Below the pieces are notes generated by a model, which saw only the letters and a list, made by a program, of their open reading frames with translations, was not told the origin of the DNA and ran no database searches. A program made the translations under genes and the position numbers. Shown one piece after another: positions 18,300 through 56,925 of a stretch of DNA of 64,000 nucleotides. The DNA is from a virus: positions 22,672-86,671 of the IMG/VR virus record IMGVR_UViG_3300005663_000003. One strand, written 5' to 3'. Numbering within the stretch: position 1 is the first letter of the stretch; the number at the start of each line of letters is the position of its first letter.

Positions 18300-19043
18300 A
18301 TGCCAGCAGCAGACCCATTTGACACCACTGGCTTCGGGCCTGGAGATGTCCAGGTCTCGTCGACCATCGGCTCTGCCTCCCTCACGTCGGTGGTTCGGTC
18401 CATCGACATCAAGGGCGGCGCGATGCAGGTCGCCACCATCGCGGCTCGCGACGCGATCCCGGGCGCCGCGCTCGCTCGGAACGATCCCGCGCAGTTCCGC
18501 CAGGAAGGGATGACCTGCTGGGTCGCGGACGCGGGCTCGGGCGTCCGCGCGGTGTTCCGTCTCGAAGGTGGCATCGCGAACGTCAACTGGGTCGACGTCA
18601 CCAACTCGACATCCATCGCACCGAAGACCCGACTCACCGACGAGGCGAACGTCCTCGTCGGGCACATCCTCTGCCAGTCGCCCACGGTAGCGCAGCGCGT
18701 CCGGCTCTGCGACCTGTCCGCTGACGACGCGCTCTCCCGCCCGGTCGGCGTGGCGACCTCGGCCCAGCCGATCAGCGCGAACCCGGTCCAGCTCCAGACG
18801 AACGGCGGCGAGGTAATGGCCGTTCGTCTGGTCGCGGCCCTCGTGCTCGCCCTGGGCGAGGAGATCATCCTCAGCCAAATCAACGGAGAGGGAACGCTAC
18901 CCGGTCAAGGCAGCGCGCCGGTAGCGGGCGAGATGGTTCAGCGTGTCGGGATCATCCTGGACTTCCTCGGCTACGACGGAGCGGCCGACCGTCTCGTTCT
19001 GGCTCAGCTCGACTTCAGCGGCACGCGAAGGATTGAATCCTGA
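18300..19043 (+). CDS. Hypothetical structural protein, fibre/decoration-like
   Basis: 247 residues, ribosome site AGGAGCC. The central and C-terminal parts carry NPVQLQTNGGEVMAVRLVAA and EMVQRVGIILDFLGYDGAAD, phrases seen in beta-sandwich decoration or fibre proteins that expose a regular 'VGVAT ... G ... L' repeat (compare LSRPVGVATSAQPISANPVQ). The stop overlaps the ATG of the next gene. Confidence 0.5.
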   Translation: MPAADPFDTTGFGPGDVQVSSTIGSASLTSVVRSIDIKGGAMQVATIAARDAIPGAALARNDPAQFRQEGMTCWVADAGSGVRAVFRLEGGIANVNWVDVTNSTSIAPKTRLTDEANVLVGHILCQSPTVAQRVRLCDLSADDALSRPVGVATSAQPISANPVQLQTNGGEVMAVRLVAALVLALGEEIILSQINGEGTLPGQGSAPVAGEMVQRVGIILDFLGYDGAADRLVLAQLDFSGTRRIES

Positions 19044-43101: not shown

Positions 43102-43385
43102 GCATCCAGAGCGACGGCAACGCCTACCGCAAACGGAGCAGGTCGCACCCCGTCCACACGCGCATGGTGACGAAGCGCCGGGCCCGCGCGAACGGTGACA
43201 ACCTCAGCGACCCGCTTGCCATCGAAGGGCACAGGGCGCGCCCCGTGTCGTGCGGCTGTGGGTGGAGCGGAACGATGGACAAGCTGACGAACCCGGCCGG
43301 TGGACCGACACTCGGCGGCGTGAACCTCGGCCCCGGCTTCCCGGTCTGCCCAAAGTGCAAGACCGATGCGAGGCTCGAAGCGTGA
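43098..43385 (+). CDS. Zinc-ribbon protein
   Basis: 95 residues, ATGA overlap. Basic N-terminus (YRKRSRSHPVHTRMVTKRRA) then SCGCGWSGTM and VCPKCKTDA, a CxC/CxxC zinc ribbon. The basic start suggests nucleic-acid binding. Function unknown. Confidence 0.55.
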   Translation: MSIQSDGNAYRKRSRSHPVHTRMVTKRRARANGDNLSDPLAIEGHRARPVSCGCGWSGTMDKLTNPAGGPTLGGVNLGPGFPVCPKCKTDARLEA

Positions 43386-43537
43386 GGCAGCTCGCCGAGT
43401 TCGTCTGGGGTCCGAAGGACGCGATCGACCTGACGGTCGTCGTCGTCTGCGTCGTGGTCATCACCATCGCGTGGCTGCTCGATTTGTTCGACCGTTGGAG
43501 GATCAAGCGGAAACAGAAGAAACGAAACCAGAGGTAG
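43382..43537 (+). CDS. Single-pass membrane miniprotein
   Basis: 51 residues from GTG 43382. One strongly hydrophobic helix (LTVVVVCVVVITIAWLLDLF, residues 17-36) is followed by a very basic tail (RWRIKRKQKKRNQR), giving an N-out/C-in inner-membrane topology by the positive-inside rule. Its role may be host membrane modulation; unknown. Last gene before the structured gap. Confidence 0.55.
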   Translation: MRQLAEFVWGPKDAIDLTVVVVCVVVITIAWLLDLFDRWRIKRKQKKRNQR

Positions 43538-43994
43538 GCCGGGGGACATAGTGCAAGGCGCCGCGCTGGAGTCAGGCCAAGCCCTTATCCTTTCGGGCGA
43601 AAGAGATGCTGTGAAGTCGTGACCGGCCCAGGGTGGAGCGTTCTCCCCCTTGATTGAAGCGGAACGGCATCGGAAAGCGTAGGGGTGAGCGTCCGTCGGG
43701 TCGGAGTTACTCAAGGGCGGATGGCCCGCCTGCTCCGAATTGGAAACTCGACGGACGCGAATCCTTCCCCACGAATCCCCACCGCTCCACGTCAGGGTGA
43801 AAGGCTTGCCCCCAAATTCCTCAGACCCTGGATGTGCTTCAAGGAATTCGCTCAAGTAGTCGGGCGGCGATGTCGATGTCGGTGGTGCTCCCTAGAAAGG
43901 GAGCTGGCCCAGCGGCTGGTCGGCAACGCTGGGCCAGCTTGGGAACACGAATACTCCCAGGCTAGCACAATGCCGCGACAGCTCTGGGGGGTTC
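43538..43994 (+). ncRNA. 457-nt structured intergenic region (candidate ncRNA or replication origin)
   Basis: No convincing gene is seen. Many perfect stems are: CTTTCG/CGAAAG (43590-43603); GGAG-CGTT-CTCC extended (43632-43649); a nested element with helices of 10, 6 and 5 bp (arms 43689-43698/43749-43758, 43701-43706/43733-43738, 43716-43720/43726-43730); CAGGGT/ACCCTG (43793-43798/43825-43830); CTCCCT-AGAA-AGGGAG (43888-43903); and a 10-12 bp stem (43902-43913/43928-43939). It ends with GCTAGCAC and lies directly upstream of a replication-type HTH gene. Strand is by context only. Confidence 0.45.
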
Positions 43995-44963
43995 GTGAGC
44001 GGACACGTTCTTCGGGATGGATGCTTCTCTTGGGTCAGGGCGGTCAGCTCGAACGACGGGCCACCGAAGTCGACGACGCGTCACGTCCTTCTAGCCCTCT
44101 CGCTCTACATGAGCCCGAAGGGGGATAGCTGCTTCCCGTCGATAGCCACCCTGGCCGACGACACCGGGCTGAGCGAGCGCAGCATCATCACGCATCTCCA
44201 AGAGGCCGACGCCCTCGGGTGGATCGCGCGCCAGGCCATGCCGATGCCGTCGAAGGGCAAGGGCTGGAAGCGGATGGCCTACGTCGCGACCGCCCCCGCG
44301 AAGGTCATGCAGCTCGCGCAGAAGGTGGTGAAGGACGTTCACCACGAACAAACCGAAGGCGGTGAACCTGACGACGAAGGTGGTGAACCTGACGGCGATA
44401 TGGTGGTGAAGGACGTTCACCCGATGCATCCAGTAGATGCTTCCAGTGATGCGGCCAGCCCGCCTCGGCCCAAATCCTCCATCCAAGAAAAGGCAGCGAA
44501 GCTCCTCGACTCGGGGAGGGCGACCGCGTGGGAGGAGAAGTTCTTGCGGTCTCAGCTCTCGAAGCTCGCGGCCGGGAAGCCTCTGTCCGTCGACAAGCTC
44601 ATCGAAGTCCTCGACGAACACGGCGAAATCCGGGAAGCGAAATCGGTCAACGTCCCGAGCGTCGCGGATCAGGAGCGCCAGATGCGCGAGACCCTCAAGC
44701 ACGACGAGGGCCTCCTGAAAGAACGCACGGCCGACGACGGACACATACCGCCGGACATCGTCGCGGCGTGTATACGAAAGCGAAACCGCCTGGCCCTCGT
44801 CGTCCCGCCGTGGCTCTCCGAGATGTCCGAGAAGCACCCGGTCGAGCAGACGGAGCCGCGCCGGAGGAAGCTCACGTCCCGTGAGGTCGACTCACGCTTA
44901 GGGAAGATCGCCAAGGCCGCAGACGATGCCGAGAAAGATTCCGCCTCGCAGTCTGTCGGCTGA
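43995..44963 (+). CDS. Helix-turn-helix replication initiator-like protein
   Basis: 322 residues from GTG 43995 after a G-rich ribosome site. The N-terminal winged helix (RHVLLALSLYMSPKGDSCFP, then SIATLADDTGLSERSIITHL and EADALGWI) is of the HTH_36 type common in phage replication (O-like/DnaD-like) proteins. The middle is low-complexity with repeated GGEPD; the C-terminal part is helical and charged. It follows the structured gap and precedes a recombination ATPase, so it may bind an origin in that gap. Helicase-loading is inferred only. Confidence 0.6.
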   Translation: MSGHVLRDGCFSWVRAVSSNDGPPKSTTRHVLLALSLYMSPKGDSCFPSIATLADDTGLSERSIITHLQEADALGWIARQAMPMPSKGKGWKRMAYVATAPAKVMQLAQKVVKDVHHEQTEGGEPDDEGGEPDGDMVVKDVHPMHPVDASSDAASPPRPKSSIQEKAAKLLDSGRATAWEEKFLRSQLSKLAAGKPLSVDKLIEVLDEHGEIREAKSVNVPSVADQERQMRETLKHDEGLLKERTADDGHIPPDIVAACIRKRNRLALVVPPWLSEMSEKHPVEQTEPRRRKLTSREVDSRLGKIAKAADDAEKDSASQSVG

Positions 44964-44973
44964 CCGTGCTAGC
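44958..44973 (+). promoter_or_regulatory. Repeated intergenic element (copy A)
   Basis: The 16-mer GGCTGACCGTGCTAGC at 44958-44973 recurs exactly at 49650-49665. Both copies adjoin the phrase ATGGCTGACAC. Copy A covers the end of the HTH gene and the leader of the ATPase gene. It contains GTGCTAGC, also present in inverted form at 43961. It could be an operator or a promoter with -10 TAGCAT; a good -35 is not seen. Confidence 0.4.
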
Positions 44974-45001
44974 ATGGCTGACACCACAAAGGAGAAACGC
45001 G

Positions 45002-46474
45002 ATGGCTAAGATGAATCCCTTCCAGAAGGCGAAGCGCGGGAAGAAGTGGGTGAAGCTCCTCATCTCCGGGGGGAGCGGCGGGGGCAAGACGCTCACCGCC
45101 TTGCAGATCGCGTGCCACATGGCGGTGGCACTCGGCCGCCCCGGGAGCGTCGCGGTCATCGACACCGAGGACGGGAGCGCGGACCTCTACTCCTACGACA
45201 CCGTCGTCGGGGAGCCATTCTACTGCTCGTGCGAACAGTGCATGAAGGGGCCGCCGAGCGAGCGCCTGGCGCTGGAGTTCGATGTCATCGACCTGCGCGA
45301 CCACAGCCCCCAAGAGTTCCAGGGGAAGATGCGGGCGTCCCTCGATTTCGGCTACTGCATCCTGGTCATGGACTCGGCCTCGCACGAATGGTGCGGGAGG
45401 AACGGGTGCCTGGAGCAGGTCGACGCGCTCAAGGGTGACGGCAAGGGTCGCAAGACCGACAACGCCTGGAACGCCGTTACGCAACTGCACAACGCATTCC
45501 TTTCCGACATCCGCGCGATCCCCATCCACTTGATCGCGACCTGCCGCACGAAGCCCGAGCGTGGCGACGACGGCGGCGAGATCATCATCCAGCGCGACAA
45601 GGACGGACCGTTCTATTACGAGTTCGGGTTCTGGGGATGCGTCACCCGCCAGCAGCCCGGAACTCTCCACATCGCCAAGAGCAGGAGCGGTCACTTCCAA
45701 GGTGAGGTCTGGAAGAAGGCCGGGCGTCACGTCGCTCAGCAGCTCCTGTTCTGGGCCGGGCACCTTCGACAGTCGGAGCCCGTTCCCACGTCAGATTCTC
45801 CCGCGTTGAGTGGGGGGTCCGCTGTCGAGTCGGAGAAGCGACCGACTCCAGCGGGCCCCCCGCCGACCGCTCCCGAGGAGCCGAGGCGCGACCCGAAGAC
45901 GTGCAAGCACACAAGCTGGAGCTTTTACAGCTCGGTCCCCGACGAGGGCGAGCCAATCGCGGGCGCCACGTGCGACGACTGCGGCATCTTCCGCGCTGAG
46001 GAAGGCCCGCCACCAGAGACCGAGGAGCCGGGTCACCGTGTTGGCGTCGCGCTCGGGGACAAGGGACCATTCGTCGGCGGTCAGCCCTCGGAGGCCGAGA
46101 CCGCCGGGCAGACCAAGGACGTCACGGTGTCGGACACCATCGACATCACGGACAGCGTGTCCGCTTCGATCGAGGGACCGAGCGCGGAGCAGGAACGATG
46201 CGCCCACGGCGCCATCAAGGACGGCGCGTGCGTCGACTGCGGTGCCAAGGTCAACGAACCCGACACGTCCGAGCCCGAGCCCGAGGAAGACCCCGAGCTA
46301 CTCAGGTGGACGCTCCAGGCCGAGGAAGCGGTGGCCGCGCTGCCGGATGCGAGCGAGGTCCAAGCGAAGGGCGAGGGCTACGTCACCCGAGCCAAGGGCG
46401 ACATCGAACGCATGAAGCTCACGGTGTCGTGGGCGAACTCCGAGCTGAAGAAGCTCGCCGCAGCCACCGCCTAG
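45002..46474 (+). CDS. Sak4-like RecA-family ATPase (single-strand annealing recombinase)
   Basis: 490 residues from ATG 45002 (AAGGAG upstream). Walker A GGSGGGKT (23-30), Walker B ILVMD (120-124), then a sensor-like strand with IPIHLIATCRTKPERGDDGG. The core (1-265) matches short AAA_24/Sak4 ATPases that aid phage single-strand annealing. The C-terminal 220 residues are unusual: two zinc-ribbon-like segments (CKH...CDDC and CAHG...CVDC), a low-complexity linker and a VTVSDTIDITDSV stretch matching tail proteins. An extra CSCEQC lies at 75-80. Confidence 0.75.
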   Translation: MAKMNPFQKAKRGKKWVKLLISGGSGGGKTLTALQIACHMAVALGRPGSVAVIDTEDGSADLYSYDTVVGEPFYCSCEQCMKGPPSERLALEFDVIDLRDHSPQEFQGKMRASLDFGYCILVMDSASHEWCGRNGCLEQVDALKGDGKGRKTDNAWNAVTQLHNAFLSDIRAIPIHLIATCRTKPERGDDGGEIIIQRDKDGPFYYEFGFWGCVTRQQPGTLHIAKSRSGHFQGEVWKKAGRHVAQQLLFWAGHLRQSEPVPTSDSPALSGGSAVESEKRPTPAGPPPTAPEEPRRDPKTCKHTSWSFYSSVPDEGEPIAGATCDDCGIFRAEEGPPPETEEPGHRVGVALGDKGPFVGGQPSEAETAGQTKDVTVSDTIDITDSVSASIEGPSAEQERCAHGAIKDGACVDCGAKVNEPDTSEPEPEEDPELLRWTLQAEEAVAALPDASEVQAKGEGYVTRAKGDIERMKLTVSWANSELKKLAAATA

Positions 46475-49649: not shown

Positions 49650-49665
49650 GGCTGACCGTGCTAGC
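49650..49665 (+). promoter_or_regulatory. Repeated intergenic element (copy B)
   Basis: An exact copy of the 16-mer at 44958, in the 179-nt gap before the gene at 49683. A possible -10 is TAGCTG (49662-49667). The rest of the gap (49504-49649) shows no gene I can support. Confidence 0.4.
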
Positions 49666-49682
49666 TGTCGTAGGTGAAGGGC

Positions 49683-56556: not shown

Positions 56557-56585
56557 ACCAGATTCGTGTGTGTGTTTTCCGGTGG

Positions 56586-56624
56586 AGGCCCGGCCAGCTC
56601 GTCGCTGGATCGGGCCTTCGCTTT
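56586..56624 (+). terminator. Rho-independent terminator
   Basis: Bipartite stem: AGGCCCG (56586-56592) with CGGGCCT (56611-56617) and an inner CCAGC/GCTGG (56594-56598/56604-56608), followed by TTCGCTTT. It ends the lysis-type cluster. Directly after it a -10-like TATGTT (about 56639) probably starts the next transcript. Confidence 0.7.
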
Positions 56625-56688: not shown

Positions 56689-56925
56689 ATGCCCCGCTTC
56701 TTCGTGGTCCACGGATACTCAAGCCCCGATAACTACGCGAAGAACGGCGGCCCCGTTCTGGAGATCACCGAGGCCGAGACGCCATCGATGGTCGCGAACC
56801 TGAGGTTCGAACACGAGCAGTGCATCAGCCATCGCGAGGCGAACCAGGGAGTCTTCCGAGTCTTCGAGCGCGAGCGGTTCATGGTCGAGAAGGAGCGCGT
56901 GACCGAGTGGGAGCTGAAGGCTTGA
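56689..56925 (+). CDS. Small hypothetical protein
   Basis: 78 residues from ATG 56689 (AGGAGACAAC upstream; the frame open from 56566 begins inside the terminator). MPRFFVVHGYSSPDNYAKNG starts a beta-alpha fold; FRVFERERFMVEKERVTEWE is the last strand-helix. No family recognised. Probable first gene of the operon from ~56640. Confidence 0.5.
   Translation: MPRFFVVHGYSSPDNYAKNGGPVLEITEAETPSMVANLRFEHEQCISHREANQGVFRVFERERFMVEKERVTEWELKA

Follow-up and report, generated by a model that had tools for sequence, protein, structure and literature searches.

Results

The window analyzed here is a 64,000-nt stretch of an 86.7-kb virus record (IMGVR_UViG_3300005663_000003; 65.7% GC). Within it, the stop codon of one open reading frame (ORF) ends at 43537 and the gene for a lambda-O-like replication initiator starts at 43995, which leaves a gap of 457 nt. 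The initiator matches three families annotated as "replication initiation O-like" (PHROG 391, and also PHROG 678 and 8540) and is followed in the same operon by an ATPase gene. The sole relative that we found is the IMG/VR contig IMGVR_UViG_3300027861_000167 (here L002), whose gene order agrees with that of the window as far as ~55 kb. Searches of viral and genome contigs with the initiator, the ATPase, and their alignments recovered only this contig, and blastn of the gap against phages gave chance matches only. Extra matches to the DNA patterns described below (blocks A and C and the iterons) among viral contigs were rejected, as they came from unrelated phages without an initiator relative. 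The features of the locus are as follows.

43538 to 43994, no strand assigned: non-coding gap, flanked by a 51-aa ORF resembling a small membrane protein and by the initiator gene (ORF list; no codon periodicity)
43689 to 43758, plus strand: nested multi-helix element found by folding; 10-bp outer stem formed by 43689-43698 and 43749-43758
43809 to 43857, no strand assigned: conserved block A, CCCCAA..TTC..CCTGGATGTGC...TTCGCTCAAGTA (blastn; 38/49 identical [78%] to L002:260-308)
43887 to 43904, no strand assigned: 7-bp hairpin with an AGAA tetraloop; an insertion missing from L002 (sequence, alignment)
43902 to 43939, no strand assigned: perfect 13-bp hairpin with a 12-nt loop containing GTCGGCAA; counterpart at L002:324-362
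43958 to 43991, plus strand: conserved block C, CAGGCTAGCA-N4-GCCGCGACAGC and a G-rich run, CTGGGGG, just 5' of the start codon (blastn and alignment with L002:381-412)
43961 to 43981, minus strand: bipartite motif CTGTCG-N8-TGCTAGC, pointing leftward, with a possible extended -10 element, TGC-TAGCCT; same place in L002 (384-404)
43995 to 44963, plus strand: lambda-O-like replication initiator, 322 aa (PHROG 391, E = 5.9e-12; Pfam HTH_36; 56% identical in L002)
44324 to 44460, no strand assigned: iterons clustered within the initiator gene, taken as the probable origin; GGTGGTGAAGGACGTTCACC in two copies, 78 bp apart, and GATGCNNCCAG repeats
44953 to 44973, plus strand: second CTGTCG-N8-TGCTAGC copy, pointing rightward, before the AAA_24 gene; L002:1377-1397
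44966 to 46474, plus strand: AAA_24/Sak4-like ATPase gene, next in the operon; probable start at ~45003

The original prediction held that the gap stands out in its surroundings and contains no coding frame, and both claims were borne out. GC content by codon position was flat over the gap and strongly periodic in both flanking genes. Rough gene calls produced two other apparent gaps of more than 400 nt in the window, but these have coding-like periodicity and long ORFs; thus, the stretch before the initiator gene stands out as the sole non-coding gap of this size in the 64 kb. The gap is a real non-coding stretch.

We found that the stems described earlier are present in the sequence; however, structure along the full 457 nt was not confirmed. 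Relative to dinucleotide shuffles, the whole gap had a z score of -1.8 on the plus strand (4/100 shuffles folded equally well) and -3.1 on the minus strand. A local scan of 120-nt windows, compared with 799 windows genome-wide, placed ~43641-43780 at about the 1st percentile of folding and gave z scores down to -5.0 (plus) and -6.9 (minus) for ~43841-44000, while 43538-43680 and 43700-43900 were average or worse than shuffles. When individual segments were compared with 200 shuffles each, the z score was +1.9 for the first 143 nt (43538-43680), -4.7 on the plus strand for the segment carrying the nested element (43685-43762), and -4.6 (plus) and -5.2 (minus) for the segment carrying the 13-bp hairpin (43895-43945). 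Only two parts of the gap beat chance, namely, the nested element at 43685-43762 and a hairpin cluster at ~43881-43985 before the initiator gene. The description of a structured 457-nt region therefore overstates what is there: the gap holds two structured elements amid mostly ordinary sequence. The Rfam search that had been proposed returned nothing credible, with zero matches in the window at the gathering threshold and chance-level matches at relaxed thresholds. Among the scanned windows, the strongest local RNA fold lies elsewhere, at 56585-56620 (z = -5.3), apparently just 5' of a start codon near 56690.

The L002 gap (L002:88-418) is 331 nt long, 126 nt shorter than that of the window, and the 5' half of the window's gap does not align with it. 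The nested element, which folding recovered as predicted, has no alignable sequence counterpart in the L002 gap; L002:105-182 forms its own comparably strong nested fold (z = -4.5) in a similar place without sequence similarity, and the two may or may not be equivalent. Three things are retained in L002: the 49-nt block A, the 13-bp hairpin, and block C, whose blastn match continues into the initiator gene. Because the plus-strand frame across block A has no synonymous change relative to L002, all differences being amino acid changing, a coding reading of this block was rejected; judged from this alignment, block A is under nucleotide-level rather than protein-level constraint. In L002 itself, the initiator apparently lacks an ATG, GTG, or TTG at the aligned start (L002:416-436); the codon there is ATT or CTG, unless an internal TTG at 434 is used.

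The hairpin nearest the initiator gene had been described as a 10- to 12-bp stem with a 14-nt loop. The stem exists but is a perfect 13 bp with a 12-nt loop; likewise, the adjacent tetraloop hairpin exists but has 7 bp rather than 6 and overlaps the larger stem. Since both hairpins use AGC at 43902-43904, they compete. The 13-bp hairpin is GC-rich, sits 56 nt 5' of the initiator start, with ~365 nt separating it from the upstream gene's end at 43537, and is flanked by tails that are T-poor on both sides and not U-rich. A lack of compensatory changes in homologues had been named as what would speak against the stems. Between the window and L002, 8/13 pairs of this hairpin are unchanged, and the other five are changed on both sides to different Watson-Crick pairs, with no one-sided change and no broken pair. 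If the arms were independent, five matching double changes would arise by chance about once in 300,000 (an estimate, 1/1287 x 1/243, that ignores one free register choice and rests on this single sequence pair). The loop sequence GTCGGCAA is conserved at 8/8 positions and is thus better kept than the stem. A possible pairing of the loop with CGACAGC in the leader (43976-43982) was matched by 1.8% of shuffled loops in the window and 12% in L002. Short-loop inverted repeats that are perfect over 13 bp occur only once in the 11.4-kb L002 locus and twice in the 64-kb window. A perfect 13-bp repeat of this kind with a 12-nt loop also lies at 18794-18831, inside a coding gene (18300-19043). Separately, a short intergenic gap at 2586-2620 contains a very strong, terminator-like GC-rich hairpin without a U-tract.

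Block C overlaps a bipartite motif, CTGTCG-N8-TGCTAGC, that recurs in inverted orientation before the next gene. Exactly two perfect copies are found in the 86.7-kb record, and exactly two are found in the L002 contig, at the equivalent two places; shuffled sequences contained none. Because the motif was picked with the alignment in view, its first occurrence cannot count as independent evidence; the second, identically spaced in the two phages, can. The leftward copy reads TGC-TAGCCT and the rightward copy TGC-TAGCAT in both phages, and both fit an extended -10 element. No -35 box is shared, and a scan with consensus models passed no promoter and no U-tract terminator. The motif could be a promoter or, equally, an operator. 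A sigma-54-type reading was dropped, with the GG missing and the spacing off. On the plus strand, the site of the leftward copy carries the hexamer TAGCAC or TAGCAG, and a rightward promoter is a possible reading of the TTG followed by TAGCA[CG] found there at equal spacing in both phages.

The iterons lie inside the initiator gene. The two GGTGGTGAAGGACGTTCACC copies are 20 bp long and identical; the L002 gene has the same layout, with two copies that are identical to each other and differ from those of the window. Where the two initiators share an amino acid, the same codon is used at 27/30 positions in the iteron part versus 76/143 elsewhere (Fisher's P = 8e-5). Both phages thus carry the repeats with synonymous sites frozen, and the iterons are under DNA-level constraint. 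In lambda, ori lies inside O (PMC6022878). Iterons together with frozen synonymous codons are what an origin within an initiator gene would be expected to show, as in lambda, and replication probably starts at these iterons. By contrast, the gap contains no iterons and no turning point in GC skew, and the skew minimum of the window, which had been suggested as a guide to the origin, falls near 37-38 kb, away from the gap. The proposal of a hairpin origin in the gap is therefore disfavored. No tyrosine integrase and no ParA, including AAA_31 ParA, was found in the record.

Discussion

We suggest, with a probability of roughly 0.6, that the gap controls the transcription and the leader of a replication operon of the lambda-O type, with a hairpin at which transcription ends or is attenuated and, as the likeliest fine structure, a short leftward RNA. 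The gap is most likely a variation on a known arrangement and not a new kind of RNA. Its 3' part (43809-43994) retains the 49-nt block, a compensated hairpin with a conserved loop, and the bipartite motif repeated in inverted orientation beyond the initiator gene. In such a region, the motif would serve as promoter or operator and place transcription to either side of the initiator gene under a single factor, the 13-bp hairpin would stop or attenuate transcription entering from one side, and its loop would be recognized by a protein or an RNA. The comparative evidence comes from two sequences, the window and L002, from which we infer this mechanism. Of the three roles initially proposed, the evidence most favors cis-regulation of the initiator gene, with conserved blocks abutting the start codon and the compensated hairpin 56 nt upstream. 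A phage non-coding RNA survives in part, as a possible short RNA around the 13-bp hairpin and not as an RNA of 457 nt.

The hairpin might instead simply terminate transcription of the upstream operon, with an ordinary initiator promoter firing rightward after it and no small RNA made. A strong GC-rich hairpin ~56 nt before the gene fits this reading, as do the similar hairpin without a U-tract at 2586-2620 in the same genome and the evenly spaced TTG and TAGCA on the plus strand. However, the tails are T-poor on both sides, the scan finds no terminator, in neither phage does the plus-strand hexamer end in T, and the upstream 49-nt block is left unexplained; the conserved loop also argues mildly against it. 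We regard this reading as possible but unlikely.

That the gap is itself the replication origin, with its hairpins forming cruciforms or serving in priming, is improbable. It adjoins the initiator gene and has perfect inverted repeats, and the compensatory changes would also be compatible with a DNA cruciform, but it is within the gene that the iterons and frozen synonymous sites lie, the skew minimum is distant, and the segment is not AT-rich (62% GC). Even less probable is that a GOLLD- or ROOL-type phage RNA, large and structured, fills the gap. Its length and the strong folds in the 5' halves of both gaps (z = -4.7 and -4.5) would suit such an RNA; against it, Rfam gives no match, half of the gap folds no better than shuffles, and the 5' half cannot be aligned to an L002 gap that is 126 nt shorter. 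A missed gene is scarcely credible: a plus-strand frame from 43685 and a minus-strand ORF at 43124-43855 are both open, but codon periodicity is absent across the gap, the minus-strand ORF runs through both upstream genes, and the plus-strand differences in block A include no synonymous change.

Returning to the control region of the replication operon, transcription that starts at 43961-43981 and runs leftward into the 13-bp hairpin would give a short RNA of ~50-70 nt opposed to the initiator leader, which would act in control of that leader or of transcription traffic. In its position and logic, this predicted RNA resembles pO-oop-tO of lambda. What pO does in lambda is a long-standing matter of debate. 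Lambda has a leftward promoter, pO, and a short oop RNA at the equivalent place (PMC3985674, PMC5869508); oop, 52 bases in length, is antisense to the end of cII, which it overlaps (PMC5869508), while pO reduces the transcription that comes in from pR, and efficient replication requires it (PMC3985674). The locus described here shares with lambda an O-like initiator with iterons in its own gene and a leftward promoter-like site and strong hairpin just 5' of that gene. It differs in that the promoter is putative and uses a different motif in unrelated sequence, no cII is seen, and the predicted RNA ends inside the gap. The hairpin lies ~365 nt from 43537, and no OOP-type antisense overlap with the 3' end of the upstream gene is found; because the predicted RNA stops short of that gene, a role like that of oop on cII is not expected.

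Antisense RNAs control initiator leaders in plasmids of the R1 CopA/CopT type. The likeness is that an initiator-gene leader contains a long stem whose loop is conserved, together with a possible counter-transcript; unlike in R1, no leader peptide was found here, the loop also resembles half of the DNA motif, and the counter-transcript is only predicted. Cluster A mycobacteriophages have RNA-based origins beside parABS and without an initiator protein (PMC7157519). They too link a non-coding phage region of ~0.5 kb to replication, whereas here there is an initiator gene with iterons and no ParA match in the record.

More specifically, and as a tentative proposal that we consider doubtful as a whole, a leftward RNA of ~50-70 nt may arise from a phage-specific bipartite promoter, end at the 13-bp hairpin, and limit initiator expression via the conserved loop. 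It would be an OOP-like counter-transcript whose direct target is replication and not cII, and the phage has no sequence relationship to lambda. The existence of this RNA, if confirmed, would point to counter-transcripts next to O-type initiators as a solution that recurs outside the lambdoid phages. In the internal iterons, an uncultivated phage group gains an origin that can be tested, and the paired motif flanking the initiator gene is a concrete target for finding the regulator of the replication operon. The two boxes also occur in a variant arrangement, TGCTAGCTGTCG, which both phages retain (window 49659-49670; L002:5254-5265) just 5' of another syntenic gene (~49674).
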